64,000 nt of DNA from Exophiala sp. HKRS030 (Eukaryota; Ascomycota; Eurotiomycetes; Chaetothyriales; Herpotrichiellaceae): contig JAHWDD010000006.1 in assembly GCA_023897205.1 (NCBI GenBank), positions 1,302,001-1,366,000 on the forward strand. The letters run 5' to 3'. The notes beneath the pieces are model-generated. The model ran no database searches. It was not told the DNA's origin and was given only the letters and a program-made list of their open reading frames with translations. The stretch's first letter is position 1. Each line of letters begins with the position of its first letter. Below are positions 5,679-29,047 of the stretch, piece after piece. The translations under genes and the position numbers were made by a program.

Positions 5679-6990
5679 TCAACCTCCCGGGATCAAAGCC
5701 ACTCTACTTTTGATCTTGCCTGCATGGAGATCATCTAGCACTTGCGCCAGCTCTGACAAAGGCCTCGTGATCACTTGTGGCTTGATCGCCCCCTGGGCTA
5801 TTAGATCCAAGACCTCCTGTAATACTTCAGTTGAGCCTGCAAAGCTGCAAAGGATGCTTAGTTGCTTCCGGATCGCCAACAGGGAATTCAAAGTCGGAGA
5901 CGGCCCTATGAGACCGACGAGGACGATTGTACCTCCTGGTCGTACTAGTAATGATCAGCACCAGATTCTTTTCAACCTACCACTTCGTCGTGGCAAGGAG
6001 AATCAATTCTTACCGGCTTCAACAGATGCCGAAAATGTCGCTGGGGATCCGACAAAGTCTATCGCTTTATCAATCCTGACATTGCGATCCTTGAGCCATT
6101 GTGGGATGTCCTGCGTTTCTGCAGGAATGACGTCGTCTAGAGCGATTCCGAACTTGACTGCTTCGTCCAGAACAAGCTGCCTTTTGTCGAACGCGATGCA
6201 CCTGGCGCCAATATGAAGCAAAATCTGCAATGCATTGAACCCCAAACCCCCCAGGCCCAGAAGGAGAACAGTCTCGTCCGCGCTGACCTTGCCCCGTCCA
6301 ACGACTGCTTGATAGGCAGTCAAGACCGCGTCCGTTGCGACCGCCGCCATAGGCGCATCAATGCCATGTGGCACTCTGACAGCGGCGGATTCCCTGACCG
6401 CGATATACGGCGCGAAAGCTCCGTCTTGTCCCAGACCGTATCGTTGAACTCCCGGAGATGTGCAGATGTGACTCGAGCCATGCATACACTCTGAACATGC
6501 AGGCTTGTCGCAACCAGCAACGCATACCACCGATACCATATCACCAGGCCTGAATTTGGTAACTTTGCGCCCTACAGAAACCACTTCGCCGCAGCATTCG
6601 TGGCCCTTCATGAACAGCGATTAGGATTCATCCTGAAACGGATCTTCACAATTCTCTGGAGAAGCCTCACCATTGTAAATGCATCTTGCTGCCAAGGGGT
6701 TGGCTTCTCCATGTCGAGAATTGTTATGTCACTGTGGCACACTGCAGTCTCGTTAAAGACCGGCTCCTAAAAAAGAGTGTGTCACAATCATACCGCCTGC
6801 AGCGAGCACTTTGAGAAGTAGCCCGTCGGCTGATACTGGGGGCCGTCCGACCTCGATCAAAGCCTGGGACGATTCAGTGAGTACACAGTATTAGCCCGCT
6901 AATCCAAGCTGGTTCTCTCCTTACCACTTTCTTTTCCGGGAAGACCTTCCGCCATGCTCTCATTTTTTGGGTCTTTTCATCGGAAGACAT
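5679..6990 (-). CDS. Zinc-dependent alcohol dehydrogenase (MDR family)
   Basis: NAD(P)-dependent oxidation of an alcohol to an aldehyde or ketone. Five exons on the minus strand: 6925-6990, 6794-6863, 6671-6741, 6014-6605 and 5679-5944 (354 residues). The joins restore VLAAGVCHSDITIL and DAFTMGHECCGEVV, giving the catalytic zinc ligands Cys and His-Glu, and EAVRPGGTIVLVGLIG near the C-terminus. Also seen: the structural-zinc cysteine cluster CDKPACSECMHGSSHIC and the Rossmann motif LLLGLGGLGFNALQ. It is a different subfamily from the ADHs at 9714 and 60407. It is the leftmost gene of the catabolic block. The substrate cannot be read from the sequence. Confidence 0.9.
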
Positions 6991-7729
6991 GTTGTTTGAG
7001 AGCGAATTGTCAGGTTACAACAGAGATGGACGGATGAGGGAACAAGGGAGCGCGTAACACGAAACCTAAGATACACCTCAGGTTCAGTCTACCGATTTCA
7101 GCCTATAATCGACGAGCATGTGTTAAGATGCATTCATTTCCTGCAAGAGAAAGATTCTCGTATCATAGTACGGATGACTACCTATTGGTTAGTTTTGTCT
7201 TTGGATGTTGGAAGGCATACTGGTAGTGTGGGGAGGACGTGGGTTTTCGCGTACCGACCTCCCAGAAATCTCATATCCTGAGGTGGTCGGTACAGAGATT
7301 AGACATCGGGTATCAGCCCCCCGGGGCGGGGGGGTAATAGGGGTCCGCCATTCGGCAAGTTCGGTAACGAGGCTGCGAGCAACTTTTGCCGATTGGTTCG
7401 TAAAAGCGATCCCCAGACAACCTGGTGGGGTGACCGAGCGACGACACACGTTACCTTCAGGAAATAAAAGTTTGGAAGGGGATTCTTTATTTCTGTGATC
7501 CATTCAGATCTCCATGGTTATTGATATAAGCAGTGCTTTGCCTGTCTTTCCAACGTCCCAGTGTCCGCACTTAGCGTTGGCACTCCCTCGGGCCTTCTTT
7601 TCTATTCTGTCCAGTGTGCGAAAGGCATTCTGCGCACAAGCAAAACGTTCGGTATAAGTACAGATCTTTCACAACCTATCCTAGCTGACCAGCTACCTTA
7701 GGCTCACGAGTTCACGAAAATCGGGCCTA
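6991..7729. promoter_or_regulatory. divergent promoter, ADH / SDR
   Basis: Both flanking genes start from this 739-bp spacer. It contains an imperfect inverted repeat at 7251-7293 (arms GTACCGACCTC and GAGGTGGTCGGTAC) with CGG/CCG triplets, and a GC-rich self-complementary run at about 7315-7334. Zn2Cys6 proteins commonly bind CGG triplets; binding here is inference. Confidence 0.4.
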
Positions 7730-9107
7730 ATGTATCGCTACACCGGCGCAGTGGATTGTAACAGTACATTCGAAAGGGGTGATCTGAAGGACAAAACTGC
7801 CATAATTACTGGAGGTGAGCATGGCTTGTGGCGGTTTGTTGGAAATTGACAGTACCAGCATGCTGAAACTCGTATAGGAGCGAAAGGCACAGGTCAGGCT
7901 TATGTGCGAGCCCTCTATCAGTCAGGGTGGGTGATGCCCCAGACGATCCTGCCCTACAGCTAGATTTTGCCGGAATATTTTTCTCTACTTGAAAAGATGA
8001 AGAAGTCTTTGGACGCTAAAACACACATGTACAGCGCGCGCGTTGTCATTGGCGATATAGACGAGCAACAAGGATCCAAGCTGCAATCGGAATTGCATCC
8101 GTGAGTCTCTCTACTTTCTATCGAAGCCCCCTGACGAGGTGATTCACTCACCGTGTCCAAAGTTCGACCAAGTTTGTCAAGTGTGACGTGTCATGCTGGG
8201 AAGATCAAGTGTCACTTTTCAAGGAGGCCATCAAGTTTTCGTCCAGCGGCGCAATTGACATAGTCGTCGTTAACGCCGGCATTGGTGGTGTCGACTCCGT
8301 CTTCAATACGACCCGTACGTTTGCCCACCACTGTTTTCATCCTCATTCTTTTCTCGTTCGCGATGCTCTGCATAGATACACAGGTCGAGGGCTTGGGTTG
8401 ACGGTTGAGTACCGAATTTTCCAGCCGAGGATGACGAACCCCAAAAGCCGCAACTCCGTACGTTGGACATAAATCTCACCGCAGCTTTGTACACGATCAA
8501 GCTGGGTCTTTATTACTTTCGGAGACAAGCTGCCAACTCTGATTCCGGTCGCGATCATTGTCTGGTTCTTCAAGGGAGCGTAGCTGGCTATATCGATTTT
8601 CCGGGGATGTTGGAGTATGGAGCTTCCAAGTTTGGCATGCGCTCTGCCATGCGGAATATCCGATCGGCGGAGGACACCAATGTCGTTCGCGTCAACATGA
8701 TTGCTCCCTGGTACGTCCCAAGGATCTGGCGGGTTTTCCGGGGGAGAAAACTGACATGGCCAAAAACAAAACCCACAGGTTCATCGCCACCGACATCTTG
8801 CCTCCCGGTCGGGCAGAACTTATGAAAGCCAATGGGATTGAATTCGCATCTCTAGAGAGCGCAGCCGAAGCGCTAATGAGGATTGTATCAAGCCGAGATG
8901 TCTCAGGTGAGTGGGTGGTCTTGGCTGTCAGATTGTTCCTACTTCCGGGCCTGTTTAACTAAAATGTGACTATTACCAGGACGAGCTTTCGCCATTGTCC
9001 CAAAGACAGACGCACCTAGCGGTTACATTGATCTTGACGTCGATGACTTCAGAGACTGTGATCTCATGAAAAGATACAACAAGCTGGTCCGTAATCGGTT
9101 GGGTTAA
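7730..9107 (+). CDS. Short-chain dehydrogenase/reductase, 15-PGDH-like
   Basis: Classical NAD(P)-dependent oxidoreductase. It is fragmented into seven exons: 7730-7814, 7878-7926, 8035-8100, 8163-8314, 8425-8710, 8779-8906 and 8980-9107, total 297 residues. Every junction keeps frame. Seen: cofactor motif TGGAKGTG (27-34; the usual form is TGGxxGxG), the strand VVIGDIDEQQG whose acidic residue suggests NAD(H) preference, NAGIGG (104-109), catalytic Ser169, and Tyr182-xxx-Lys186 in YGASK. Resemblance is to fungal 15-hydroxyprostaglandin-dehydrogenase-like SDRs, which oxidise secondary alcohols. It is divergent from the ADH and in tandem with the next ADH. A role in secondary-alcohol oxidation within the cluster is inferred. 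Confidence 0.9.
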
Positions 9108-9713
9108 TGATACAAAGCCACGAGCCGAGTCCTTTGATAATCCGGGCGCTTGGTGAATGGGACAAAGTATTTCGATTGTGGGCATGAAGTCTTCTCTTCC
9201 GTTACAAAATAAATGTTCCAGCACGTGTGGATGGGCCGAGTTACGAAAGTTGAAAAATGAATACATGACTATATATTGTCAGCAAAACTCATACAAGTCC
9301 GTATGGATAATTGTTTGTTCACTTTCTCCACGCGGTCAACAGAGATTTGTAGACGTGAAGATTCTAATTAAGAATTGAGGGGGCTAGTAAGTAGGTAGTA
9401 ATGAAATCAGTACTGGACAAGAGTCAGAAAATACAAGGGAGGAGTTCGGCAGTGCCCTGAGTGCAAGGAAGGGGGGGTTGACCGCTTCGGTAAAGCTCGG
9501 CCATGTTCTCACTTCCGCAGACAAGGCTGACTGACCTCCACTCCCTCAATCGGCAATATTTTGAACTGGAGGTTGAATTTAACCCTACCACCCTGCACTT
9601 TTACCGGATGTCGAGGATCATTCAGGTGATTTCGTGGGCTCTTTAGGCATATAGGACGACGACATCGACCATCAACGTCCGGGTTCACTTCTTCGGGTTC
9701 ACGATCAGGAAGG
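9108..9713. other. intergenic, SDR to ADH
   Basis: Promoter region of the second ADH. No feature beyond this was recognised. Confidence 0.35.
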
Positions 9714-10922
9714 ATGGTTCCACTTGACATTCCTTCACACCATGAGGCGGCGGTGTATGATGAACCGGGCAAGATTTCGACGAAGCTCGAAACGGTCGAA
9801 ACTCCCCGACCGAATGTGGGAGAGGTCCTTGTCCGTTTGACTCACTCCGGGGTGTGTGCCAGCGACATGGCCGTCATGACCATGGGTTGGAAACATCTGG
9901 TCAGACCGACACCTAAAGGCCAGGTTGGCGGCCACGAGGGTGTCGGTGTGGTCGTTGCTCTGGGCTCCGACGCCGACTCCCCAGGTCTCGAGGTCGGACA
10001 GAGAGTGGGAATCAAATGGTTGGCCTCGGTCTGCGGAAACTGCGAGGCATGCCTGTCGGGCGCCGACTCGTGCTGCACCGCCAAAAAGATCAGTGGCTAC
10101 CACGTCCCCGGTACTTTCCAACAGTACGCCCTCGCCCCGGCTCAATACGTCACGCCCATTCCCGATGGCCTGGCGAGCGAGCAGGCGGCGCCTCTGCTGT
10201 GCGGCGGACTCACCGTCTACAGCGCCCTGCGGAAGTCGGGTGCGCACCCGGGAGATTGGGTCGTTGTGCCGGGAGCCGGCGGCGGGTTGGGTCATCTTTG
10301 TGTACAGATGGGACGCGCCATGGGGTTCAGGATGATCGGCATCGACTCGGGAACCAAGAAATCGCTGGTGAAGGATGAATGTGGCGCCGAGGGTTTCGTC
10401 GATCTTGGTGACTACAACAACAACGACGGCGACGACGGAGGTGCGATGAAGATGATCGAGGACGTCAAGCTCATGACCGGAGGGCCAGGGGCCAAAGCCG
10501 TGATCGTGTGCGCCGCCAGCAACGCCGCCTACGCCCAGGGTCTCCGGATGCTCAAGTTCAGGGGCACTCTTGTGTGTGTCGGCGTGCCCGAAGGCGAGAG
10601 GGTACCCATCGAGTCGGCCGACCCCGGTTCCATCGCCGGACGGGAGCTGCGCATAGTGGGCAGTGCCGTCGGCACCCGGAAGGATGCCATCGACGTGATG
10701 GAGCTCGCGTCAAGGTAAGACCATATCTCCACCGACAAGCCCTTCCCTTGAAACGCTTCTCAAGTGACGATCGTGACTATACTGACAAACCACTCGTGTT
10801 GATACAGAGGGATCGTCAAGACTCATGTGGAGATCTTTGGGATGGAACAGTTGACCACGGTGTTTCAGAAGATGCATGCACAGCAGCTACAAGGTCGCGC
10901 AGTCATCAGCCTAGAAGGTTAA
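9714..10922 (+). CDS. Zinc alcohol dehydrogenase, yeast ADH1-type
   Basis: Medium-chain NAD-dependent alcohol dehydrogenase. Exons 9714-10714 and 10808-10922 (93-nt intron) give 371 residues. The second exon adds the conserved end IVKTHVEIFGMEQLTTVFQ. Seen: catalytic zinc ligands Cys48, His74-Glu75 (GGHEGVG) and the later PLLCGGLTVY cysteine; the structural zinc cluster Cys107, 110, 113 and 121 (CGNCEACLSGADSCC); and the nucleotide motif VPGAGGGLGHL. In yeast ADH1 the residue after the first zinc Cys is His (CHTD). Here it is Ala (CASD), as in the paralogue at 60407, which suggests a distinct substrate class. It lies inside the catabolic block and converges on the permease gene. Confidence 0.92.
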
Positions 10923-11354: not shown

Positions 11355-13122
11355 CTACAGAGTGTATCTGAAACCGACCAGACCTTGCAGCGGAGTTCCA
11401 TCACGTTCGGCCTTTTTGTTCATTCTGAAAAAGTGAAGATCCAAGACGGCGACCAAGACGATTGTCAGTATGCAAAACCTAAGGTTTCAGACGGATTAAA
11501 AAACGGCATCGAAAATCACAAAACCGGACTTTGATGGGTCCTCTTTGACTCACCCGATTGAAGCGTAGATCCCCGGCAGATACTGGGGCGCATCCTTAGC
11601 TCTGAACACCAGTGCTCCCACGATGCCACCAGTCCCACCCATGGTGATCAAGCTGGCACTGCAAAAGGCACGCCTCCAGGTTCCACGGATGTTGTTGGAC
11701 TGATAGGCCATGACAGTGGGGATTGAGGCGTTGCATCCGGCAGTGACGAGGAAGACGCCAAAGTATTGAGAGCCCGCCGACTTGGTCCAAGCCAGAAGAC
11801 ACAGACCACATATGGATTGTAGCGAGTTCCAGACAAGATGAGGGGCGCGAAAGCGATACCTGTCGGCCACCCAGCCTTGGGCGTACATGTAGAAAGCGGT
11901 GAAGATGTATGGAGGTGTACTCAGGGCGTTGGCCGCGAGGATACTGTAGCCCATTTTGTTCCTCAAGATGAGCGGCAGGAAGAAGGAAATCGAGTAGGAC
12001 ACCACTGTACTCGACCTTTCACGTATGTGGTCAGCATAAGGTCGAAATGTGACCAGCAAAGAAGAAAACTCACAAAAACATCATTCCCATGGCCCACACT
12101 TTCCAGTCCAACGCGGTGCTCAGGTACTCGCGCAGGTTGAACTTGTCATTGTCAACCTCGCCGCGATCCTTCTCCAGCATCTGGACCACTATTTGCAATT
12201 CCCGAGTGGACAAGAAGCTTCGACTATTTTTGGCCTTGTTCGGGAAGTCCACGATCAGGTACGCGCCCAGAAACCCAACCAGGATGGTCAGCACACCTTC
12301 CCAAATGAAGATATACCTCCATCCAAGATAGCCTCCGACGCCCTGCATTTGCATGAACCCTGATGCGAGGACTCCGGACAATGATCCTCCGACGAGACTG
12401 ATGAGGTAGAAGGTCGCGTAACGTTTGTGGACATCATCTGTTGAAAAAGAAAAGCTATCAGAAATCACGTCATCCTCCAAACATTTCATTCATCGAGGGG
12501 GGATGAAAGGGGTGCTTCTTGAAGACGTACAGCGACGATACCAACTCTGGAGCAGAAACAGGGATCCAGGGAAGAGACCTGCTTCGAGCGTTCCGATGAT
12601 GGCTCTAATGGCGACAAGTTGACCCCAAGTCTGGACGAAGCCAGCACACAGCATGACGACCCCCCAGAGCAGAACTGACGCCGGTAGGAAGTACCTGGGA
12701 CCGATCTTCTTGGCTAGAAGGGCGCCGGGCCACTCAAAGACCACATAAGTGGGAAAGAATGCAATGGCGACCGTGGACTGTCTCTCAGCTATAGTGTTAA
12801 TACATGCGCGGTATGTAGTAGATCCCAAGAACCGGGGGATGAATGATGATGGGGGTGGGGGGCTCACGTAGCGGTTGCCCACGGTCAGTTTCAATTCCTT
12901 GGCCATGCCTGCATTTGCGGCGTAGCCCAAGTTGACTCTGTCCATCAAGGACACGGCGAACATGAAACCCGTGGCCAGGATCAGTCGCCGGTCGATTTTG
13001 TGGACTATGCGTCGCTCCTCATCCGGAGATACCTGGATCTCCGACTCGTTGTCTGGGCTATCTTCGAGCTCGTGGCTCGATGATGGCCTCTTTTCGGTAT
13101 CGATTGAGAGTTCTGGCGCCAT
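11355..13122 (-). CDS. MFS anion permease, Dal5/allantoate-permease family (Soa1-like)
   Basis: Plasma-membrane symporter of the anion:cation symporter family. Members carry allantoate, vitamins and, for yeast Soa1, sulfonates and inorganic sulfur anions. Exons 12868-13122, 12531-12777, 12074-12437, 11554-12015 and 11355-11478 give 483 residues. Seen: an acidic hydrophilic N-terminus, then KIDRRLILATGFMFAVSLMDRVNLGYA (helix 1, family signature), GPRYFLPASVLLWGVV, a second half beginning SYSISFFLPLIL, and a cytosolic tail. About 12 hydrophobic segments are apparent. The acceptor before STVAIAFF was chosen because it preserves frame and the family motif NRYS. It is divergent from the alkylsulfatase, so uptake of a sulfated or sulfonated anion is a reasonable inference. 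Another small carboxylate is also possible. Confidence 0.88.
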
Positions 13123-13750
13123 TATGGATGTGGAAGATCAGCGCCAAGGTTGATCCGAAAAAATAAATCACCACGATGCGCGCACGTGGTCCAAGTTCCG
13201 GATGCTTGACGAAAGGTGAACGTCTGGGGGTGAGGTACATTGGCTAGGAGACTAAAACCTGGGGAAGTTATCATGCTTTTTTTAAAGGATTTCATCGGCT
13301 CTGATGTTAGCGACGAGGATGCGAATGTTGAACAACCGAAGTTACCGAGTAGTGTGTACGTGGAAGAGGATTGGGTTCTCTCTTGACAGCCCTACTGTAA
13401 CTGTCCTCTCATGGGGTCTTTCGGGTGGGGAATGGGGAATCCCCGTCTGAGGCGAGTCTGTGGAAGGTAGATTGCGGGGATTGACTCGAATCCGGGTGTG
13501 GATCTACAAGGTTCTCGGCCCCTTGGTTGTCCTGCCGAGTCATCCATGTGCCGTCTCCCGTCTGCCGAACCATCTCAACCTAAGAACATGTAGCTTTTTG
13601 GCGAGGTGTGCCGGCTCGCTTCAACACTGCTCGCAACTCGAGCTCCAACAGGAATCCCTACGCGCTGATCTTGACCACCTCTTGTGCTCTTGCTGGATAT
13701 GTGCGGAAAATCCTTCTCGCCATAACCCTCAAGATTCGAAAGTGCGAGTC
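13123..13750. promoter_or_regulatory. shared divergent promoter, permease / alkylsulfatase
   Basis: A 628-bp region serving two start codons. A CACGTG palindrome lies at 13183-13188. In yeasts this is the Cbf1 site, which works with Met4 on sulfur-assimilation genes; use of it here is inference. An open frame runs from 13460 into the sulfatase, but it is poorly conserved in character and is treated as leader. Confidence 0.45.
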
Positions 13751-15658
13751 ATGGCAGCATCACAGTATCTGACCCCGAGTTCATCTGGACCATCTTTCGA
13801 GGATACTCAGGACTTTACCGACGCCGATCGAGGTTTCATTGGTTCATTGAAGCCATGCATCATCCGAAATGCTCGTGGGAAGACCATCTGGGATAATGAT
13901 GTCTACGACTTTGTGTATCAGCAAAAATGTCCACCCACCGTGAATGCCGGCCTCTGGAGACAGGCGCAGTTGCTGTCCAAGCAGGGGCTGTACCAGATCA
14001 GCCAGACCATCTATCAAATCCGTGGCTTCGACATATCGCACGTGACCTTTGTCGAGGGCAGGTCCGGCGTAGTCATCGTCGACCCCTTGATCTCATGCGA
14101 ATGTGCCTCGGCCGCTCTGAAGTTCTATGAAAACCACCGAGGTAGCCGTCCGGTGAGGGGGGTCGTATACACTCACAGCCATATCGACCACTACGGCGGC
14201 GCTGCCGGGTTGTTCCCTGGTCTGGAGAATGACGCCGTCCCAGAAGGCGTGGCGGTGGTGGCACCGGAAGGATTCATGGAGGAGGCCTTGTCGGAGAATG
14301 TCATTGCCGGCCCCATCATGCGTCACCGCGCGGCGCACATGTACGGCTCACGCCTTGAAAGGTCTCCCTGCGGCCAGGTCGGAGTCGGTCTGGGCATGGC
14401 GTCGTCGACGGGGAGGACCAGCCTGATCCCCCCGACCGCGATCATCAAACAGACCGGCGAGCGACTGACGATTGACGGGGTGACCATGGTTTTTCAGATG
14501 GTGCCCGACACAGAGGCTCCGTCGGAGTTCAACATCTATTTCCCGGACAACAAGGCCCTTCTGATCCCGGAATGCGCCGGTCATGCTCTTCACAACATCA
14601 CCACCCTCCGCGGGGCTCTGGTGAGAGACGCCAAAGCATGGGCCCGGTATCTCGACGAGTCCCTGGTGCTTTTCTGTGAAATTGAAACAACCGACGTGCT
14701 CTTCGGGAGTCACTCCTGGCCCACGTGGGGATCGAACAACATCAGACGCTACCTGGGAGAGCAGAGAGATCTTTATGCCTATCTACACGATCAGACCATC
14801 CGCCAGATGAACCGCGGACTGAATGGGACCGAAATCGCCGAAACCTTCGTCCTGCCTCCCAACTTGAGGCGTCGTTGGCATACGCAGGGCTTTTATGGGA
14901 GCATTAATCACAACGTAAAAGGGATCTATCAACGCTACATGACCTGGTTCGACGGCAGGGCCGAGAACTTGTGGAGATGGCCCCCAAAGGAAGAGGGCTC
15001 TAGGTACGTGACTTGTATGGGCGGACCCCAAGAGACCCTACGAAAAGCCAGTCAATTTCAGGCCGACGGGGATTTGAGATTCGCAGCAACCCTTCTAGGT
15101 AACCTGGTGGCAGCCAGGGAAGAGTATCCCCAGAATGTCCGAAGTCAGAGCCGGGAGATGCTCGCACAAGTCTTTGAGAGCCTGGGATTCGGATGTGAAA
15201 ACACCCTTTGGAGGAATTTTTACCTCACCCAGTCGAAGGAGTTGCGGCACGGGGACCATCAGCGCAGCCAATTCTCTCCACTCCAGGCGTCGTTCCCACC
15301 CCAGATGTCGGTAGAACAGTGGTTCGAAGGTCTCTCCGTCAGTATTGACGGCGCAAAGGCCGGAGAGGAAGGACAAACGATGCAGATTGGTGTAGATGTC
15401 GTCGATAAAAAGGAGAGCTGGGTCTTGATCTTGAGCAATGGTGCGCTCACTTATCGAAACGTGACTGGAACATCACCTCTGACCCAGGTTCCCGGACATG
15501 ACCTCGTTCTCGAAATCGAGATGAGCAAGCTGAGAGAGATTTTAACGGGCAAGGGAGACCCGAACAGACTTCAGATTCTCACGGGCGACATAGTTTGTTT
15601 GGAGAGACTTCTTTCACTGGCTGGGCTAGGCAAAATCGTCAGATCAGCAAGGATATAA
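13751..15658 (+). CDS. Alkylsulfatase, SdsA1/BDS1-type metallo-beta-lactamase
   Basis: Secreted-like or intracellular hydrolase that removes sulfate from alkyl or aryl sulfate esters such as SDS, giving an alcohol and sulfate. Single exon. The ATG at 13751 gives 635 residues, close to bacterial SdsA1 (658) and yeast Bds1 (646); the frame stays open upstream to 13460. Seen: binuclear-zinc motif THSHIDHYGG (141-150), the Glu/His block PECAGHALHN followed by TLRGA, the third His in GSHSWPTWG, an alpha-helical dimerisation region, and a C-terminal SCP2-like lipid-binding domain (from about 520). No signal peptide is evident from the chosen start. The intronless structure among multi-exon neighbours fits bacterial ancestry, as proposed for yeast BDS1. 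Confidence 0.93.
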   Translation: MAASQYLTPSSSGPSFEDTQDFTDADRGFIGSLKPCIIRNARGKTIWDNDVYDFVYQQKCPPTVNAGLWRQAQLLSKQGLYQISQTIYQIRGFDISHVTFVEGRSGVVIVDPLISCECASAALKFYENHRGSRPVRGVVYTHSHIDHYGGAAGLFPGLENDAVPEGVAVVAPEGFMEEALSENVIAGPIMRHRAAHMYGSRLERSPCGQVGVGLGMASSTGRTSLIPPTAIIKQTGERLTIDGVTMVFQMVPDTEAPSEFNIYFPDNKALLIPECAGHALHNITTLRGALVRDAKAWARYLDESLVLFCEIETTDVLFGSHSWPTWGSNNIRRYLGEQRDLYAYLHDQTIRQMNRGLNGTEIAETFVLPPNLRRRWHTQGFYGSINHNVKGIYQRYMTWFDGRAENLWRWPPKEEGSRYVTCMGGPQETLRKASQFQADGDLRFAATLLGNLVAAREEYPQNVRSQSREMLAQVFESLGFGCENTLWRNFYLTQSKELRHGDHQRSQFSPLQASFPPQMSVEQWFEGLSVSIDGAKAGEEGQTMQIGVDVVDKKESWVLILSNGALTYRNVTGTSPLTQVPGHDLVLEIEMSKLREILTGKGDPNRLQILTGDIVCLERLLSLAGLGKIVRSARI

Positions 15659-15866
15659 ACTAAATGACTGGTGATATTGGTGGGATCAAGTTAATAGGGC
15701 TCACAATATTTGCTTGTAACCCATTGAACTCATTTCATTTTGACTCACTCAACTGCTTAGAGAAAATTTTGCTGTCTCACTGGAAGAAGATAAAGGCGAC
15801 TACTGCAGTTCTTACAGCCGGCGTTCAAGGTAGGCGCAAATCATGATTTCCAGCAAGACATTTCTC

Positions 15867-17433
15867 TCACAAGATGGCTTTTTGGGACTTCGCTATCATT
15901 TCGACGTAGCGAAGGCGGGGATACTCGTACGCTTCCGTCATCATTTCCGGCGCTGCGCCATACCATCTCAAAGTCACCGACATCTTCCCACCCCCAGCAG
16001 GAGCCGGTAGCCAATTGTCAGTCCATTCTTTGGGCGGTGGGCTATTGGCAGGCTGGACAAGGACTTCAAAAGGCCCATCTTTTCCCTTGTCCGCCAGAGG
16101 CGTTCCATCCACAAACCTCAGGTTGTCCCTGTCTCCCAGGCAGAATCTGTTTAGTCGGTTGGGGATGAAGTACTGCTGGGCGTTGTACGCCGTCAGACTC
16201 CAAAAGCCTCCCGGGTTGAGAACTGGCCGACGTGAGAATCGGATGACAAGTGCCTTTCCCGGAGCAAGGTAGATGGACCCCTCCAGAGAAGGATAGGTCG
16301 CCTGATCCGGTGTCAGACCAAGGTATCCGTACTTTGCGATGGCAAACCTGGCGGCATAGTCCGAACCAAAGTTACCCATGCTTTCAGGGAACCAAGACAC
16401 CCATCCATTGCCATGGTCCAGCTTACCCCCCGGCTCCCGGCGGGCAGCCCTGGCTTCGCTTTCAGCCTGACGCGGGAGGATGGAGAGATCAGCTTCACCA
16501 CTTGAATCCCTTGTCAAGATGCCGTCCTGAATCCCGCTCATCGACAAAGCTTTGGAAATAAACGGCCGGTCTCGACGAACTGGAGATGGAAGAATTGGCG
16601 CGAGAGCTGCAGTGAGGCGGAGGACACTTTCTACGATCGAGATGTCCTTGCTTGGACGGTAGCCGGGTTGCGTGAACAGAGACAGATCGAAGGGAGGACC
16701 AGCAACGGGTGGCACGCCTCTTTCGATAACCACGACTCGAGATTGATCTTGATATCTGTTTGCGAGGCTTTGATCGGCAATTGATGGCGTTGTGGCAATT
16801 CGTACCAGGCAGATACCGTACATACTGGACATGGTGATACAGCCTGCATAACCGTCGATATCGCCGCGTGAACAATCAAGACTTAGACCAGGTTCCTCGT
16901 CCTCTGAGCAGCGCACCAAGAACTTGCCTGGTTTGTGATTCTGCAGACTATTGACATTTGCGAGATCATTTCCGTAGCTACAATTGGAGTATAAGTATTA
17001 TGATTGGCTTTCATCACGAAGAAACCCCAAAGATGAACAAAAAACGAGGAGAAAGTCTGCTCACCAGTCGTAGAATGACCAGCACCAGTAGCGGTCTGGT
17101 ATGGAAGGGATAGAAAATTCCAACATCTGCGCCGACAAATCTAGGAGTACAGTACTGTACAAAGTATCGCCATTGGGGCGAATGACTTTCAGGTCGGCGT
17201 CCGTCGAAAGGCGTCGGTCATGGTAGAGCGTGTTGACGGAAGCACGGGGAGATGAAGCCACGAACTTTCCAAACTCGAGCAGAGGATACCCATACTGAGA
17301 GGAATGTCAGTGAGTGAAATCGGCCCCAAAAAGATACATGGACATTTCAGGTAAGATATACCATGTAGATAAAGTTGAGCGCATCTTGACGGGTCTTCAA
17401 CTCCCGAAGGGATGGTTGGCTTTGATGTCCCAT
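15867..17433 (-). CDS. DUF1254/DUF1214 domain protein
   Basis: Protein of unknown biochemical role; relatives are widespread in soil bacteria and fungi. Exons 17362-17433, 17065-17294 and 15867-16977 give 470 residues. Seen in order: the DUF1254-type N-terminal block NFIYMYGYPLLEFGKF and DTLYSTVLLDLS, then FYDCYGNDLANVNSL, and a C-terminal DUF1214-type part with PGGFWSLTAYN, RFVDGTPLADKGKDGPFEV and WLPAPAGGGKMSVTLRWYG. No signal peptide was noticed from the MGHQS start. It shares a 437-bp divergent promoter with the CoA ligase and its stop lies 208 bp from that of the sulfatase, so it belongs to the block by position. No function is claimed. Confidence 0.87.
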
Positions 17434-17870: not shown

Positions 17871-20013
17871 ATGACCAGGAGCGGTGAACCCGAGGTGATA
17901 TGGCGCCCGTCACAGCGTCGAGGGAGAAATGGGATGAGGGAGTATCGACTACATGTGAATCAGAAGTTTCATCGGGATTTTTGTGACACACACGAGCTTC
18001 AACGTTGGTCCGTTGCTCATGCTCACGAATTCTGGCTCGATTTATATGGGTATTTGAAGATCCAGCCTCCTTTGCCCGCAACCATGACCAAGGCATACGA
18101 CGACACTGTTCCCATGAGCAGCATTCCTGCCTTTTTCCCGGGTCACAAGCTGAATTATGCCGAGAACATCCTTTCAGAAAATCCGAACCCGGAAACCGCC
18201 GCCGTCATCGGACTCGTAGAAGGCGACGACGACTTCCTCAACAAGCCTCGAGAAGTTCTCAGCTGGCAACAGTTCCGCGAGCGAGTGAGGGAGACATCCA
18301 GCGCGCTAAAGCGTAGTGGCATCAAGAAAGGCGACCGTGTCGCAGCCATAGTAGGTGCCTCGGTATGGGCGGTGGTCCTATTCCACGCGACGGCTTCCAT
18401 GGGCGCCATCTTCACGTCCATCAGTCCAGAACTCGGCCTCAGCGGTTGTGTGAGCCGGTTGCAACAGGTCCAGCCGAGCATCATCTTTTTTGACAGCCAT
18501 GCCATCTACAAGGCAAAGGCAACCTCCACGGCCGAGAAGCGACGACAGATCTTGTGCCAGCTCAAACCCATGCCACAGGTCTATGTCATCCCCGTCACCA
18601 ATAAAGGAGGCTCCGTTATCGATGACGATGTTCCCTGGATAGAGGAGTTCTTGAGTCGCGCATCGGCATCCGACGAGCTGACTTTCGAACGAGTACCGTT
18701 CAATCATCCGTTGATCATATGTTACTCCTCTGGAACCACGGGGACCCCGAAATGCATTGTCCACAGCCACGGCTTGATCTTACAACTGAAGAAGATCTCC
18801 GTGGTCCATGATTGTTTGGGTCCTGAAGATATCGTGACACAGTACGCCAGCACGTCTTGGGTCGTTTTCTACGGCATGTGTGGTCACCTTAGCTCCGGGG
18901 CAGGCATCGTACTGTACAACGGCAGTCCCTTGTACCCGGATGCGAAACAACTTTTACGGATATGTGATAGGTTCAAGGTGTCGTTTCTCGGCCTGTCACC
19001 TAGGTTACTGTTGGAAATGGAGATGTCTGGAGCACAACCAAAACTCGAATTCGAGCTGTCTCGCTTGAAGACCCTCCACACCACCGGTGCCCCCTTGTCT
19101 GCAGAGCAGTATCAATGGATTTCCCGTGCCTTTCCACCGGACATGCAGATCTGCAACATCGCCGGAGGTACGGAGAATGGCACAGCACTTATCGCTCTCG
19201 ATCCCGATGGACCAGTTCGCGTCGGGGAAATGCAGACCGAGTCACTTGGCATAAGCATCGACATTCTCGACGCCGAGACGGGTGAGTCGATCGCAGACAC
19301 CGGGGAGCCTGGAGAGCTTGTCATCACCATGCCGTATCCCAGCATGCCGTCCTTTTTCTGGGGTGACAAAGGTGGCAAAATCTATCGCGAAGCATATTTT
19401 GAGCGTTTCAGCGACAAGGATGTCTGGGCGCAGCATGACTGGCTGAAGAAGAACCCAAGCACTGGCGGTTTCGTTATGCTGGGTCGAAGTGACGGGGTCT
19501 TGAGTACGTTTTATTCTCCTCATACACCACCACTCAGCTTAACAAATTGCGGCGGTCGTGATTCTTTCGTTGCTGACTCTTCGTTTTCATGCTGCAGATC
19601 CCTCAGGAATCCGTTTCGGTAGTGGTGAGATCTACGCCATCGTCGAAAAGGAACCTCTGCTCAGCTATTTCAACAACGTGCTTTGCGTCGGTCGGCGTCG
19701 TCCACAAGACGTGGATGAACAGGTGTTTTTGTTCGTCGTCATGAAACCTGCGACCCCCTTCACTTCTAAGATTCGCGAGGAAATCAAAAGTGCCATTAGG
19801 GCGAATTTGTCCCCACGACACGTTCCCAAATTTGTCCTCCCGGTACCGGATGTGCCAATGACCATCAACGGGAAACGCGTCGAAACGATTATCAAGAAGA
19901 TCATCAGTGGAAAGGACGTCCAGCCAAGTGCCACCGTCGCCAATCCACAGTCGGTGGAATATTTCAAGCGATTCAGAAGCCTTGAGCAAGAGCCAAAAGA
20001 CGCAAGGTTGTAG
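17871..20013 (+). CDS. Acetoacetyl-CoA synthetase-like acyl-CoA ligase
   Basis: ATP-dependent adenylate-forming ligase that makes an acyl-CoA from a short acid. Exons 17871-19503 and 19598-20013 (94-nt intron) give 682 residues. The frame is open upstream to 17808, but without an ATG. Seen: the N-terminal AACS/ACS region with FPGHKLNYAENIL, P-loop YSSGTTGTPKCIVHSHG (about 285), IAGGTENG, the acyl-adenylate hinge SDGVLNPSGIRFGSGEIY restored by splicing (typical of acetoacetyl-CoA synthetases), and the catalytic lysine in MTINGKRVE near residue 635. The family acts on acetoacetate; cluster paralogues may use other short acids. Here it could activate acids from oxidative cleavage of ketones, which is inference. 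Confidence 0.9.
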
Positions 20014-20878
20014 GCTGTCACCCAACTTGTTCAACGGCGGGCACGCTGAACGTCTTCAAACGTATCGCCATGTGTGTGGCCCTCCCATGGATTCGCATCA
20101 TCGAGGATCTGCATATATACTTTGGATAATTGATGTGCTACCCCCTGAAATGTACACCCACCGTTTCGCACATCATAATCATCATCTTCAACGATACAAA
20201 TGACACGGTTCTGCCTTTAAGCTGGTCCTTCGCGTCGCATCCACGTCTTTTTCATGATAGTCTTTGTCTCCGTCAATGGTCAACGGCCAATTTACTCGAT
20301 TATCACTCCACTCACATTTGCAATACATGTCGTTGTGGATTTTTTTGCCTCCGATTGAATGACCGACGCCTCCCCCAAACCTTTCCCCATAGCCAGGGAC
20401 GGAGTATTGTGGGGCCCAGGGTCTCCTCGGTACACGTTTCATAGCAATATCGTAATTGTCGTCCCAAATCTGCGCGATCTTGCAAACTACCGAGTTTGCC
20501 GAAACGTCACTTCATGTGAGCACGGTTCCATTTCCGCGCACAAGACGTGACCCAACACTTGATCAGATGAAAGAGAATTATGCAATACCCAAGCCCCAGA
20601 CCGGTCTCGAGAGGAACTGTTATGATAGGTTTTCAATACACAGCACAGTAATGACATCTAACAGCTTCTGATCGTTCTACGCCAGATTGTAAGGAATGAG
20701 AAACATAATGCTTAGAAGTACTTCGCTCTCATGGTATCGTGTAAGCCTCAAAACCCACAAACTGGTCACTCTGGATCACCCTCGCTTTCACCAGCCTCTC
20801 AGTCCAAGCCTTTCTGTCCTTCTCTAGCTGAGCCTCAACACTTGCTATTGTTGCTTTTTTCGAGGTCCACGTGCGAGG
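20014..20878. other. intergenic, convergent 3' ends
   Basis: An 865-bp spacer between the ligase and monooxygenase stops. Only short unconvincing ORFs were seen, and no repeat. Confidence 0.35.
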
Positions 20879-22445
20879 TTATTCTGCCTTCAGACGGGTA
20901 AAGGCCAAATCTTGATGCAGGTCGCCGAATTTGGCATTCCAATAGTCCCTGAAATAGCTGGTCCTGGCCGCCCACGGACCGCGATCCCCGGACTGGGGCA
21001 TCGTGCCCCGTTCCACGGCTTTCTTGACGTAGCTGCTGTTAAGGTTGAGGAGGGGGATACGCTGCATCGGAGCGGCGCCGGGATGCTGTGAGGCCAGGCG
21101 TGGAACCACACTCGAGCATTTTTCTCCGCGCATCTTCTTGACAAGACGGACGAACAACTGGGCGGTAGCGTCCGCCCCGAGGGTCCAACTCATGTTGGTG
21201 TAGCCGAAAACGAAGATGAAGTTGGGGACGTCTTGCAGCAGGGCGCCCTTCCAGGCCAGCTTGTCGCCGAAGTTGACCTGCTTGCCATCTACTACTAGCT
21301 TCGTGTGTCCGCCCATCTCGACCCTCAGTCCGGTGGCGGGGACAATCAAGTCCGCCGGGAGTCGAGCGCCAGAGTTCAACAGGATCCCATCCGACTCCAC
21401 CGTATTGACCGTGTCAGTGACGACGTGGCCTTTTCCTGAGCGCAGGGCGGCGAAGAAGTCTCCTCCGGGTGTGATGCACATCCTCTGCTGCCACGGGGAG
21501 TAACGGGGTATGAAATGCGGGTCACACGGGACGTCGGCGGGGAGTTCAGTGGCCACTCGGCTCTGTAGGATGCGTCGCGCCTTGTTTGGAAAGTACTGAC
21601 AGAACCAGTAGATAAGGTACGTGTTCAGAATCGCTCGCCAGCGGATGACTTTGATCGCCCACGACGTGGGAAGCCAGCGTTTGATGGTCGGGACGAGGGG
21701 CGGCACGATCGGGTTCGCCAACAGATAGCTAGGTGATCGCTGCAGAATGGTTACGGATTTGGCCTTCTCCGACATGGCCGGCAACAGGGTCACTGCAGTT
21801 GCACCACTACCAATGACGACCACGTTCTGATCGGAATAGTCGTAGGACTCGTCCCAGAATTGTGGGTGGATGACCTTGCCTTGAAAGTTTTCTAGGCCAG
21901 GGATCGTGGTTTCCAACGGCTGCTCGTAGTCATAGTACCCCGTGGCCATGATCACGTACTTCGCACGATATACCTTGCGTGCCGCGGCGACAGACTGGCC
22001 ACCATCGTGACAGGTGGAGTCGATAGTCCATGACTGCTGTTCTGAAGACCACGACAATCGATCAACTTTGTGATTGAAGCGAATATGTTCCATTAGGCCA
22101 TGTTTATCCACGGTCCGCTTCATATAGCTCAGGATGGCTGGAGCAGACGCGATGGGATGGTTCTCCGTCCACGGCTCCCAAGGAAATCCTAGATTGCCAT
22201 AATCAGCAGGGGTAAGGAGGGTAGTGCGGTGGTGAAGGCTCAGGCTTCTCACCAAAGGTATAAAGATCCGAGTCAGATCGAATTCCAGGATATTTGAACA
22301 AGCTCCAGGTACCTCCAAGTTCTGATCGGTTCTCCAGAACGATATATCTCAAATCTCCGAGCTCGTGTTGGATGCGATATGCGGCATTGATGCCACTGAT
22401 ACCGGCGCCCACGATGACGACGTCGTAGTCAAGTGCCTCGAACAT
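20879..22445 (-). CDS. FAD/NADPH Baeyer-Villiger-type monooxygenase, AlmA-like
   Basis: Flavoprotein that inserts oxygen next to a carbonyl (ketone to ester); AlmA relatives are linked to long-chain alkane growth. Exons 22253-22445 and 20879-22188 (64-nt intron) give 500 residues. Seen: the FAD Rossmann motif VVIVGAGISGINAAY near the N-terminus; [23 protein letters not shown], the AlmA/BVMO signature restored by splicing; a full FxGxxxHxxxW fingerprint in FQGKVIHPQFWDES (about 165-178); the NADPH Rossmann motif VVVIGSGATAVTLLP; and the late block NFIFVFGYTNMSWTLGADATA. It shares a 0.9-kb divergent promoter with the aldehyde dehydrogenase. A role in turning a ketone into an ester within the cluster is inferred. 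Confidence 0.92.
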
Positions 22446-23341
22446 GACGGTTTTGCGAAAGCATAGACGACAAGGAAGCAAATTATGACCGGTTGAAGAT
22501 CAATGAAGTTTTGTACTTGTTCACCTTTGCTGACTACTAAACTGGATGGACGTCTGCGGGGGAGAGGAGGGTATGTAAAGCAGCACAAAGTCTTTGTACT
22601 ACCCCAGTCAGGGCATCGTTTTAGTTAATGTAATCTCGAAGTCTGTAGTTCTGATTGTATCTGGTGACTGTGACATAAGGTTGAGACCAATTCTACACCC
22701 AAGGCTGCCGAAGTGGAAGTTGAATCTTTGGAGCACTCGGTATGTTCGGCAGACGCTGTTTGCAGTCTGGAGTTGGCTGGGTTGTGCCAGTGGGGACATC
22801 CTGACGCTACTCACATTTCCGTCGCCTCTTCCTCGTTTGGAGCAATCAGATCAGATGGAAGTGTCGAGACAGTCACCCGATAAGAGCGGCAGAATGTAAT
22901 TAGTGGCCATCCTCGGGTCGTTATGCTTCGGCAGCATGTATAGCCTCGGCCAACAGGTAAACGAGGAGGGATGGATTGATGGTTTTCGACAACCTACATC
23001 GTGCAGCTTGACAAGTACGTATAATTATGTGAGAAAAGAGATAGAGAAGAATCTCTTATTACTTCAATAAAACGGAAGTGTAAGATGACGCGATAGGATA
23101 AGACAGACCAAGTAGGACAGCATAGGGAGTAGTGGGAGATACAAGAAGGAGGTTAAGCCTCGCCGAGTATAACCTTTCCATTACGTGGGATGCACCAGCA
23201 ATAAATTATTGGCCCCCTTTCGTGTAATGTTCTTTTGGTTTTGAGAAGATTCTTTGGCCTGTATCATTCGAGCCTCGACCCCTTCTGACTTGAACAATCA
23301 TCAATCCAACTACACGACCCATAAGCCACACAGTTTCGACA
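22446..23341. promoter_or_regulatory. divergent promoter, monooxygenase / aldehyde dehydrogenase
   Basis: Bidirectional 896-bp region. No repeat stands out. Short ORFs inside it look spurious. Confidence 0.4.
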
Positions 23342-24997
23342 ATGCCTTCCAACGGGTACAAACCCATATCCTTCTCGACTTTCGCAAATATAGTGGACGG
23401 TCAGCCGCGAAAGTCAAGCAAAAGTACTTTTGGCGTTGATCCCACGACCAAGCAGCATCTCTGGGAAGTGCCCATAGCCTCGGCCAGCGATGTGGACGAT
23501 GCGGTTGTTGCTGCTCATCGAGCGTTCACCGATTGGAAGTTGACCCCTTGGCAAGAAAGGACCGAGTACTTGACCCAGTTCAAAGATGCCATCAAGGCTC
23601 ACGAAGAGGATCTCATTACCCTATTGTGCAGAGAAACCGGCAAGCCTCGAGGGGCGGCCCAGAGGGAAGTCCAAAACTGTCAAATGTTCGCCGACTGGCA
23701 CATCAATCTCCCGGAGCCCAAGGGCGACGAGTATGATCTCGCCGACCGGAAAATCATCCACAGATGTGTCCCTCTCGGTGTGTGTGCGGCCATCTGTCCC
23801 TGGAATTTCCCCGTATTGCTCAGCCTGGGCAAGGTTTTGCCGGCACTTTTGATGGGCAATGCGATCATTGTGAAGCCAAGTCCATTCACCCCGTGAGTGA
23901 TTTACAAATTCTCCCCTTTATGGTGATTATGCAAATGCATATGACAAGGTAATCTATCTGACTAACAGACGTCCACTATATGTAACAGTTATACAACCCT
24001 AAAAATGGTCGAGATTGCGAATCTGGTCTTCCCACCGGGACTCGTTCAAGGTCTTGCCGGCGATGAGGCTCTGGGTCCAGCTCTCGTTGAGCATCCTGAC
24101 ATTCAGAAAATCAGTTTCACTGGATCGACGACTGCAGGAAAGAAAGTTATGGCTGCGGCGGCCAAGACGCTGAAGCGTGTGACCCTCGAAATGGGCGGGA
24201 ATGACCCTGCTATCGTCCTGCCAGACGCGGATATCGAGAAAGCGGCTTTTGTGATCGCCAGGGTATGGAAACCATTCTTTTTGCTATTGTTCAATTTGTT
24301 TGGACCTCTGCCCGTTATTTCCGGAAGTCGAAAAAAAGAATCAAGGCTAATCTTCCATAAATTTAATGGGCAAAAATAGGGCGCTTTCGCCAACTCGGGT
24401 CAAGTTTGTATCGCATGCAAACGGATCTATGCACACTCCTCGATTTACCAGCCGTTTCTGGAAGCCTTGGTCCAAGCGACCAAGTCTTTCACGGTCGATC
24501 CAACCCGGGAGGAAGGCCTTCTAATCGGCCCTGTGCAGAACACGATGCAGTATGAAAAGGTCAAGACGTTTTTTGAAGACTCCAAGGAAAAGTCGTACAA
24601 GTTCGCCTACGGCTCCGACGCGGTTCCAGAGAGTGCAGGAGGCTATATTATCCGTCCTGCGATCCTCGACAACCCTCCCGATAACAGTAAGATTGTGTCC
24701 GAGGAGCCCTTCGGACCTATAGTGCCGGTTCAACGATACGAGACGGTGGACGAGGTCGTCCGCCGGGCGAATGCGTCTGAGGCCGGTTTGGGGGCCACCG
24801 TGTTCGGCTCCGACCCTCGAGTGCTGAGCCAGGTGGCCAGCCAACTCGAGAGTGGCATGGTGTGGATCAATGGGCCTCCCGAGGCGAAGCCAGAAGCCCA
24901 GTTCGGTGGTGTAAAGCAGTCTGGGATCGGCACCGAGTTTGGCACCCTGGGTGTGCTGGCATACTGCAATGTGAAGACTATTACCACGTACAAATAG
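23342..24997 (+). CDS. NAD(P)-dependent aldehyde dehydrogenase
   Basis: Oxidises an aldehyde to the acid. Exons 23342-23892, 23989-24262 and 24380-24997 give 480 residues, a normal ALDH length. Seen: PLGVCAAICPWNFPVLL, KPSPFTPYTTLK (restored at the first splice), FTGSTTAGKKV, catalytic Glu251 in LEMGGNDP, nucleophile Cys285 in NSGQVCIACKR (the usual form is CIAGKR), EEPFGPIVPV and the end FGGVKQSGIGTEFG. It is divergent from the monooxygenase. Together with the ADHs it would complete alcohol to acid oxidation in the block. Confidence 0.94.
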
Positions 24998-26818: not shown

Positions 26819-29047
26819 CTACGATAACAATTCCAAGTTCATCGAGGGCTCAGGGTTGAATATATCGTTCGTGTCAAAAATTGAGGGATTATTCGAGTCG
26901 GCGAATTCATCAAACACCCAGCTAATGTCGACATCTAGATGGTGTTGATATTCCACTTCATCCAGGACGAATGCTGAGTGGGTGTATTGCTGTCCCAACA
27001 TCTTCAACCGTGGGGCAAGTGACTGGGGAAATGGGAACAGGTCATGGACCATATGCACTGGAACCGCGGAGGCTGAATGACGCGAAGTCGGAGGGACACA
27101 ATCTCCGGAGTCCTTTCGCCGCAGCCGCATGATGGTATTTTGGACCACACCAGCGCCGTGCCACTTTTTCCGCAGTATACTCAAAGTGATTTCCAGGATG
27201 TCGAGCTCCTGCCGGGAGATGTCACGTTCTTCTTCAGTCTCACAGCTGGAACCCAGCAACGGCGCCGAAGCAACCATCACGTACCAATTGTGGAAAGCCC
27301 AGAGATGGTTGACGTCGTCGCGGCAGTTCATCTCCTCGTACAACCGCGCAATACAAGACGACGCTACCAGTGCGTGAAAGGAGCCCGTGGAAGTCAGTGA
27401 AACCCTCTCGTATTGATGGCAATAGTTGATGATGGCCACAAAATACAGAATGTGAACTTCGAAAATTTCCCAGCGGTACTTTTTGCGTCCCTCTGGCGAG
27501 TACAAACGGATCTGGGAAGGCAGGCTCTGAATAAAATCCTGGAGGGATTCGAGAATGCTTTGACTCTGGCAATTTCAGACTTTCGTCAGCCTCGAATGCT
27601 CACATACGGCAGATTTTGGTCCCCAAGACGTGTTGGACTGTGAGTGAAGTTTGGTCGACGAGGCGACGGAAGAAAAGGGGTCTTAGGAAGGGACGGGATT
27701 GAGGAGAGGGACAATCGATGATTTACACGCGTACCTCGAGTGGGAGAGCCTCGGGAGTCAAACTCGCCAAGTCGTGAGTTTTGTGAAGAATCAATGAAAG
27801 CTTTACCAAAGACATGTTGATGACACACTTCATATCGGTGTTAGGATAGTCAGCCAACGACAACGGGCTGACTGTGAAGTCTTGTGGTTTAACGAGACAG
27901 GGCCGAACGAAGGCGCAGGCCATCATCTTGTCCACCATCTACGCTCGTTAATGAAACTGCGCCTCGCTTCGACCAGAAGTCAGGGGGATGGGCGATGCTT
28001 ACGAAGATAGTCCACGCTATACGACGTGCAATACCGGATTGTGGTTTCTGGGCGTAAGTGGAATCCTTATGCAAACCCATCTGGAACATGAGGTTTGCAG
28101 CAACGGACAACCAATGCCAGGTGCCATCCAGCGTGAGACCAGTGGGGCCTTTGATATTCCAGATCAGCATGAGGCACAGGACTTTAAGAACAGTGAGGAA
28201 GTTTTGTTCGTGATTGGCGAAGAGGAGGCCTTTGACTCTGGTGTAGTACTGGTCGGCGTCGGACAGCTCAAGTGGTTCGCGGGGTTGTCTTATGACAGCT
28301 CCAACGAGACAGATTCCATACTTCAGCAGTAACGACGACTGCTCTGCCCCGGATAGGTCGCCTGGGTCAAGGACTGGCAAATAAAGGGAGGCGCGATTCT
28401 CATAGTACTCAATCGACGCCTCGAGCATGAAACTGGACGGAAGCTTGTTCGCGCCACTCACTTCGAGCACTCTTTGACCAACCTGGTCAGAGAAACTGGC
28501 GCCAGATAACTCGTCGGCTGAGGACCATAAGCCGGTCAAGAAAGATGAATCGCCAATTACCACTTCGCTTCGTGCGGAAGGTCCCGTTTGAGACAGGTGC
28601 TCCGGACTTGTGACAGGGTCACCATTACGTCTCGATGGCTGAGAGTCGGTGGGTTGACGGGTATCGGAGACGCCAGCTAACGATATGGGTGATACATGAG
28701 ACGGCGTGGGTAGACGTTGGTGGTTTGCAAGATGTTCAGGATTCCGTCTAGCTGCGGCTCGTGGTGCTTGACGAGGTCGGGGTCTGGCCATAAGTTAGTT
28801 TTCCAGGTCGGAATGTGACTCTCGCATGTGACAAGAGGTAGCTGTTTCATACTCGCATAAGACTCCATATACACGACACTGGTGACAAACACCGTCTGAC
28901 GAGGTCATCAAGTCGCATTTGACCTGTTACGTCGTCAATATCGCCGTCGCCCCTGTTAAAATTCAAAGGCATATCTACCTTTCTAGAATGGCAATGCATG
29001 CAAACCAGCCTTGCGCGCTCACGGGCCGACGGCTTCAGTCTCGGCAT
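26819..29047 (-). CDS. Zn2Cys6 transcription factor, likely cluster regulator
   Basis: Sequence-specific nuclear regulator. Exons 28979-29047, 28853-28923, 28003-28783, 27735-27938 and 26819-27565 give 623 residues. The DNA-binding domain appears only after splicing out a 55-nt intron inside it: CMHCHSRK joins VKCDLMTSSDGVCHQCRVYG, giving CX2CX6CX9CX2CX6C at about residues 16-46. The linker then reads PRPRQAPRAAARR. The middle region has YENRASLYLPVLDP and WHWLSVAANLMFQMGLHKD, as in the fungal_trans (Fungal_trans/PF04082) domain. The in-frame codon at 29119 is TTG, so the first ATG at 29047 is used. The fourth intron (169 nt) is the least certain. Its position at the end of the catabolic block suggests pathway control; that is inference. 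Confidence 0.87.

Follow-up and report, generated by a model that had tools for sequence, protein, structure and literature searches.

The genome of the black yeast Exophiala sp. HKRS030 (Chaetothyriales; 59.8 Mb in 50 contigs, designated C1, C12, C14 and so on) carries on contig C6 a block of ten genes, g1 to g10, that probably constitutes a single inducible regulon for the catabolism of organic sulfate esters, judging from its gene families, its promoters and its paralogous loci. The window analysed is the stretch C6:1302001-1366000 (64 kb), and coordinates without a contig name are positions within it. The best reading of the block is a fungal version of a known type of catabolic cluster, in which the permease is a fungal one, control is of the Zn2Cys6 type and further oxidative genes are present. 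The regulator g10 would bind TCGGYA repeats in the common promoters and before its own gene and thereby switch the block on, the permease g4 would import an organic sulfate anion, and the alkylsulfatase g5 would hydrolyse the sulfate ester inside the cell to sulfate and an alcohol, which the dehydrogenases g1 to g3 would oxidise. In the case of a secondary alcohol, the Baeyer-Villiger monooxygenase-like flavoenzyme (BVMO) g8 would turn the ketone into an ester, an esterase encoded outside the block would cut the ester, and the freed alcohol or aldehyde would be oxidised, lastly by the aldehyde dehydrogenase (ALDH) g9, before the ligase g7 charged the acid with CoA for beta-oxidation. The substrate, the order of the reactions, the binding and direction of regulation, the cell compartment and the ester step are predicted, as are the Baeyer-Villiger step, the chain length and the primary or secondary position of the sulfate; the Baeyer-Villiger half of the reading is the weaker one.

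Spliced models with GT-AG introns yielded ten uninterrupted proteins, and the ten gene families and positions named in the original prediction were upheld by these models, by Pfam and NCBIfam domains and by the catalytic motifs generally expected for each family. By its domains and motifs, g5 (13751-15658, + strand; 635 amino acids, intronless) is a member of the type III (metallo-beta-lactamase) alkylsulfatase family. The hallmark of these enzymes is HxHxDH with further metal-ligand motifs; g5 contains THSHIDH, APSEF, ECAGHALHN and SHSWP, and its Lactamase_B, Alkyl_sulf_dimr and Alkyl_sulf_C domains each score over the Pfam cut-off. Its relatives in the PDB are PSdsA, YjcS, Pisa1 and SdsA1, and it aligns to PSdsA. 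The bacterial enzymes SdsA1, Pisa1 and PSdsA (PDB 2cfu, 2yhe and 4nur) share its sequence family and metal-ligand motifs, and the scores against these three do not separate a primary from a secondary sulfate preference of g5. The start codon of g5 is uncertain, the database match having 732 amino acids as opposed to the 635 modelled. A crude look at hydropathy found no secretion signal in g5, which may act intracellularly. The C-termini of g5 (ARI) and g7 (ARL) resemble peroxisomal PTS1 signals. Divergent to g5 is g4 (11355-13122, - strand; 465 amino acids, last exon uncertain), an MFS permease, probably a Dal5-like anion:cation symporter, for which the top NCBIfam match is TIGR00893 (164 bits, below the cut-off of 395) and MFS_1 scores 105 bits.

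The four divergent pairs with common promoters that had been predicted (g1/g2, g4/g5, g6/g7 and g8/g9, with intergenic distances of 739, 628, 437 and 896 bp) stand in the spliced gene models; g3 and g10 are single genes. The regulator g10 (26819-29047, - strand; 633 amino acids, short internal exon uncertain) has a CX2CX6CX5-12CX2CX6-9C cluster and a Fungal_trans domain (PF00172, PF04082). When a word common to the six promoter regions was sought, TCGGYA (TCGGCA or TCGGTA on either strand) emerged as the top hexamer family (log10 p of -11.4), bettered in one of 300 control sets of equal-length segments by the simple repeat ATCATC. It occurs 25 times in the 4,059 bp of promoters, against an average of 3.47 and at most 9 in 300 dinucleotide shuffles, and 14 times in 16,737 bp of gene bodies. 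At least three sites are present in all six segments; the controls reached at most five segments, in two of the 300 sets. All five density peaks of the window (at least four sites per 600 bp) lie in the block, at g1/g2, g4/g5, g6/g7, g8/g9 and upstream of g10. The sites are often arranged as direct repeats spaced every 9 bp (CGG-N6-CGG), found at 7352, 20488, 22737, 29584 and 29593, with a one-mismatch copy at 13334. Five of the 70 matches to TCGGYA-N3-TCGGYA in the genome fall inside the 22 kb of the block, where about 0.03 would be expected by simple arithmetic, two of the five overlapping.

The g1/g2 promoter (6991-7729) has seven TCGGYA sites and a perfect TCGGYA-N3-TCGGYA direct repeat at 7352, the region upstream of g3 (9108-9713) three sites, below the peak threshold, and the g4/g5 promoter (13123-13750) three sites and the one-mismatch repeat at 13334. 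In the g6/g7 promoter (17434-17870) three of the four sites form a 6-bp repeat (17592-17609), and the g8/g9 promoter (22446-23341) has four sites with a perfect direct repeat at 22737. Upstream of g10 (29584-29607, - strand) is a triple array with a 9-bp period, a candidate autoregulatory site. Triple arrays number 11 matches at nine places in the genome (control, four matches), and three of the nine places are the block, an alkylsulfatase/permease promoter on C14 and a permease/regulator/type I sulfatase locus on C1. A wider scan for pairs of CGG, including palindromes of the CGG-N-CCG type (0-20 bp apart, twelve regions), found only CCG-N3-CGG (5 observed, 1.6 expected) and CGG-N7-CGG (9 observed, 3.0 expected) to clear a loose threshold. 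Because TCGGYA is common to the promoters of both halves of the block, and in view of the paralogous loci in the same genome, the block is apparently one regulon under one regulator, and the claim that it is a single unit built around the alkylsulfatase gains support from the same two observations.

The genome has three alkylsulfatase genes, and a divergent g4-like permease gene stands alongside each of them. DUF1254 genes number three clear ones, with a weak match as a possible fourth, and an alkylsulfatase is found less than 5 kb away from two of the three. The C14 locus (386501-426500) has an alkylsulfatase with 67% identity to g5, a permease with 49-58% identity to g4 and a g10-like regulator with 45-55% identity (40% over an N-terminal piece); the alkylsulfatase/permease promoter is the one place with a motif peak in its 40 kb, and tblastn over that stretch found no others of the ten block genes. 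A second large catabolic locus surrounds a distant alkylsulfatase paralogue on C12 (705001-765000), with an alkylsulfatase (51%), a permease (40%), a DUF1254 protein (38%) and a short-chain dehydrogenase/reductase (SDR; 31-36% over long pieces), as well as two alcohol dehydrogenases (ADHs), several genes resembling flavin monooxygenases (FMOs), an AMP-binding ligase, an alpha/beta hydrolase (PF07859) and a COesterase (PF00135). The BVMO fingerprint occurs there at three places, two less than 7 kb from the alkylsulfatase and one about 24 kb away, and the genes of the esterase class, of which no member was found in the block, lie about 16-18 kb from that alkylsulfatase. The idea that the SDR and ADH belong to a duplicated cassette was rejected: g2 has a better paralogue than the C12 SDR, so that both kinds of gene may have come to C12 independently. 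In a tree of the three genomic copies and those of the 120 best hits longer than 560 amino acids, the window and C14 alkylsulfatases belong to one six-member clade (support 0.79) and the C12 copy to a separate clade of 17 members; the linkage of alkylsulfatase, permease and DUF1254 at C12 is therefore either old or convergent.

Two further loci combine the permease and regulator lineages with other partners. On C17 (144135-151653), a DUF1254 gene (37-43% over the main pieces) accompanies g10-like and g4-like genes, no alkylsulfatase having been found there in the genome search; the sole motif peak in 40 kb is directly upstream of the DUF1254 gene, and the permease promoter has no TCGGYA site. 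On C1 (4370885-4380205), genes resembling g4 (46%) and g10 (35%), with identities taken over the main pieces, are followed by a TCGGYA array repeating about every 12 bp and then by a type I sulfatase with a predicted length of 594 amino acids (PF00884, 181 bits), which is not homologous to g5 and has a predicted N-terminus resembling a signal peptide. Since the same permease and regulator lineages adjoin two non-homologous sulfatases, the comparison suggests that the substrate class is sulfate esters. The prediction of a pathway for alkyl sulfates or long-chain aliphatics is thus strengthened as to the sulfate esters and not as to a long-chain or alkane substrate or the ketone-to-ester step. 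It is conceivable, as a tentative extension, that the permease and Zn2Cys6 lineages form a cassette for sulfate-ester uptake and control with a TCGGYA code of locus-dependent spacing, redeployed with type III sulfatases (C6, C14), a type I sulfatase (C1) and DUF1254 (C6, C17). A spread of this code to more type I sulfatase loci was considered and set aside. Among the wider-spaced TCGGYA matches listed (to C6:838981, of 150 in all), four fall within 6 kb at C1 and none near the permease-sulfatase loci C4:1444407 and C5:846020; C10, C14 and C6:4449753 lie beyond those listed. Density peaks number one each in the 40-kb stretches of C14 and C17, and none in C9 or in two stretches of C2.

Type I sulfatases occupy 21 loci genome-wide after merging, and C1:4266196-4278758 has matches worth four such genes in about 13 kb. 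A permease is near two of the 21 loci at 8 kb (0.47 expected, p 0.08), five at 12 kb (0.71 expected; four with C1 removed) and six at 15 kb. The linkage of permeases to type I sulfatases was dropped as main evidence, as it depends on the distance chosen.

Linkage in other species was judged from contig size and locus tags across protein searches, in which proteins were clustered at 90% identity and members can hide. Among the 16 named proteins that are at least 57% identical to g5, six apparently share a contig with a DUF1254 homologue: the two genes are adjacent in Penicillium lagena (N7510_004161, N7510_004160), lie on one 10-kb contig in Pseudogymnoascus VKM F-3775 (V491_00274, V491_00276), and co-occur on contigs of 51 kb in Aspergillus sclerotialis, 93 kb in Cadophora DSE1049, 661 kb in A. 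ambiguus and 7 Mb in P. antarcticum, the last being uninformative by itself. No link to DUF1254 was seen for the other ten, one of which, E. oligosperma LTS17_009586, corresponds to the C14 copy; in E. xenobiotica the alkylsulfatase and DUF1254 are on different contigs. Linkage of the alkylsulfatase with DUF1254 thus appears to extend to two other fungi at the least and perhaps to six.

Several observations weigh against a single regulon with a single pathway. TCGGYA was discovered post hoc, in the very promoters on which it was scored. One perfect TCGGYA-N3-TCGGYA lies in the convergent gap between g7 and g8 (20488-20502, - strand), which is not an obvious promoter, and there are peaks outside the window as well, with five over 60 kb of C12 and one over 30 kb of C7. 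Genome-wide, TCGGYA-N3-TCGGYA is near chance (70 matches, 59 in the reversed control), as is the wider-spaced repeat (150 matches, 179 in the control); because of these counts, the motif signal is to be read as a local concentration. The g10-like regulators of C12, at least two in number, are only about 22-27% identical to g10, and the alkylsulfatase/permease promoter there has three TCGGYA sites and no peak. The failure to find an esterase in the block, already part of the original prediction, recurred in family scans of the block open reading frames (ORFs), and of ten ORFs scanned in the gaps at 25.4-26.5 kb and 29.3-32.6 kb, CobW gave the sole match, in a scan that could overlook ORFs shorter than about 100 amino acids or split by introns. 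Finally, none of the 120 best g8 homologues and the 120 best alkylsulfatases were seen near one another, and no g8 homologue among the 120 best shares a contig with a DUF1254 match; one, from E. aquamarina, is apparently on a contig with a listed alkylsulfatase, the tags being far apart (A1O9_06163, A1O9_05496). Since the listed BVMO homologues were not seen near the listed alkylsulfatases, the BVMO half of the block looks lineage-specific. Scattering of the genes in relatives, which had been named as grounds for abandoning the prediction, is half answered: the alkylsulfatase and DUF1254 are linked in several species, and the BVMO was not seen linked with them.

This pattern also suits an alternative in which one regulator governs two adjacent modules. 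One would be an old core for sulfate esters, made up of the permease, the alkylsulfatase, DUF1254 and the regulator, and the other a ketone/acid module specific to the lineage, with the ligase, the BVMO and the ALDH; the two would be co-expressed without forming one linear pathway. The small gene set of C14 and the interspecies linkages favour it, as does the finding that the top paralogues of g7 and g8 are at loci where no match to any of the block's other nine genes was found, save a 31%-identical permease at C9. It is nevertheless rather unlikely: the g8/g9 promoter has perfect TCGGYA repeats just as the g1/g2 promoter does, and C12 independently joins the core with three enzymes bearing the BVMO fingerprint, a ligase and esterases.

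Among the known systems closest to a single sulfate-ester regulon is the SLF module (slfRCHSL) of the Psychrobacter plasmid pP62BP1, for which degradation of sodium dodecyl sulfate has been demonstrated and which, like the block, combines an alkyl sulfatase, an alcohol dehydrogenase, an aldehyde oxidoreductase and an acid-CoA synthetase in a compact cluster that has a regulator of its own (PMC10779009). The SLF module is described as a bacterial operon with an AraC/XylS regulator, its five genes as listed in that source include no permease, BVMO or DUF1254 protein, all three of which are in the block, and its ligase goes by the name of fatty-acid-CoA synthetase, whereas the block ligase is acetoacetyl-CoA-synthetase-like (PMC10779009). 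The block has the sulfatase, ADH, aldehyde oxidation and CoA ligase and lacks the AraC/XylS regulator and operon; because its regulator is of the Zn2Cys6 type and its genes are divergent, it may be said to work like the SLF module without being a member. Among fungi, the Saccharomyces BDS1-SOA2 pair resembles g4/g5 in that a type III alkylsulfatase gene is syntenic with a permease gene of the Soa/Dal5 family (PMC5303821, PMC5857272). The sources present that pair as a matter of sulfur assimilation, whereas the block has ten genes, among them those for oxidative enzymes and for a Zn2Cys6 regulator. A second possibility is sulfur scavenging as in yeast, whereby the alkylsulfatase and permease would supply sulfate in starvation and the oxidative enzymes would dispose of the alcohol. 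BDS1 is indeed upregulated under sulfur limitation and syntenic with SOA2 (PMC5857272, PMC5303821). Such a role is improbable for the block, since a block-specific Zn2Cys6 regulator, several oxidoreductases and a CoA ligase would suit carbon use better. A scan for the CYS-3/MetR-type site found a full site in no block promoter and one single-mismatch match in g8/g9, and sulfur-starvation control was set aside on that basis.

In a 2018 review, yeast Bds1 was the sole fungal enzyme of the family characterised both genetically and biochemically (PMC5857272). In 2022 came MaAts of Metarhizium acridum, like g5 a type III alkylsulfatase of a filamentous fungus, deletion of which lowered alkylsulfatase activity; it was studied for stress tolerance, and the available part of the account mentions no cluster (PMC8951457). 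Literature searches, limited to the titles and starts of abstracts listed, found no described fungal cluster of such a kind. Exophiala species including E. oligosperma have been recovered from dishwashers and their waste water, and Exophiala and Fusarium taxa are credited with metabolising surfactants (PMC4750988); for these reasons the block may be what allows such fungi to live where detergents abound, and it is likewise a candidate basis of surfactant removal. The use of sulfate esters by fungi is poorly known, and the predicted binding site makes the substrates of black yeasts and the role of DUF1254 directly testable.

The oxidative genes begin with the zinc ADH g1 (5679-6990, - strand; 354 amino acids, five exons; PF08240, PF00107), the SDR g2 (7730-9107, + strand; 297 amino acids, seven exons; PF00106, 102 bits) and a second zinc ADH, g3 (9714-10922, + strand; 371 amino acids, two exons), and end with the ALDH g9 (23342-24997, + strand; 480 amino acids, three exons). 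The acid-CoA ligase g7 (17871-20013, + strand; 682 amino acids, two exons; PDB match 4wd1) passes the TIGR01217 equivalog cut-off (524.9 bits, cut-off 520.9) and fails that of the NF002937 (PRK03584) subfamily (576.3 bits, cut-off 639); because one acetoacetate-CoA-ligase cut-off is passed and another failed, it is annotated as acetoacetyl-CoA-synthetase-like only. The whole genome has 61 exon-level matches to this query. The fingerprint of type I BVMOs is FxGxxxHxxxW(P/D), and g8 (20879-22445, - strand; 500 amino acids, two exons) carries FQGKVIHPQFWD together with two Rossmann motifs, GAGISG and GSGAT. Its top PDB matches, over about 220 residues, are putative flavin monooxygenases and cyclohexanone and phenylacetone monooxygenases. 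If the proposed pathway is correct, the block would encode a complete fungal route from a sulfate ester to acyl-CoA via a Baeyer-Villiger step. Alternatively, the block might serve detoxification or natural-product tailoring, removing or remodelling one sulfated toxin, sterol or secondary metabolite, BVMOs, SDRs and ADHs being common in tailoring; FMO/BVMO-like sequences are moreover abundant in the genome, where the BVMO query has 93 exon-level matches. This is very unlikely, as the permease, ligase and ALDH suggest assimilation and no polyketide, peptide or terpene synthase was found in the 37 window ORFs scanned, which include part of the downstream ORFs.

The DUF1254/DUF1214 protein g6 (15867-17433, - strand; 470 amino acids, three exons) may also have some role in the sulfate-ester pathway. 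Both of its domains score over the cut-off and its fold agrees, the predicted structure of its near-identical database match P0121 having a pLDDT of 92.8. Fold comparison gave clear matches only to three uncharacterised proteins (four entries), the weaker ones looking like common beta-sandwich resemblance, and was ruled out as a route to the function of g6 on that account; Vibrio VPA0735 and VPA0106 (PDB 3vb9, 3u07) are structural-genomics targets without a named function, so that no function can be transferred to g6. The block, whose regulatory code is testable, may nonetheless offer a clue to DUF1254, and if the proposed readings are correct, DUF1254/DUF1214 would act in sulfate-ester metabolism as an enzyme or binding protein so far unrecognised.

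The flanks, originally described as housekeeping, contain a YVC1-like channel and a kinase/phosphotransferase-like ORF upstream and CobW (31458-32018) and Maf1 downstream. The upstream aldo/keto reductase (3880-5151, - strand) adjoins the block without a motif peak, is not clearly housekeeping and may or may not belong to it. The top full-length matches of g6 and g8, each with 100% identity after rounding, are Exophiala oligosperma LTS17_001751 (at least two residues differ) and Knufia peltigerae H2204_003137, respectively; these species labels conflict, and one of the public records may be misnamed.

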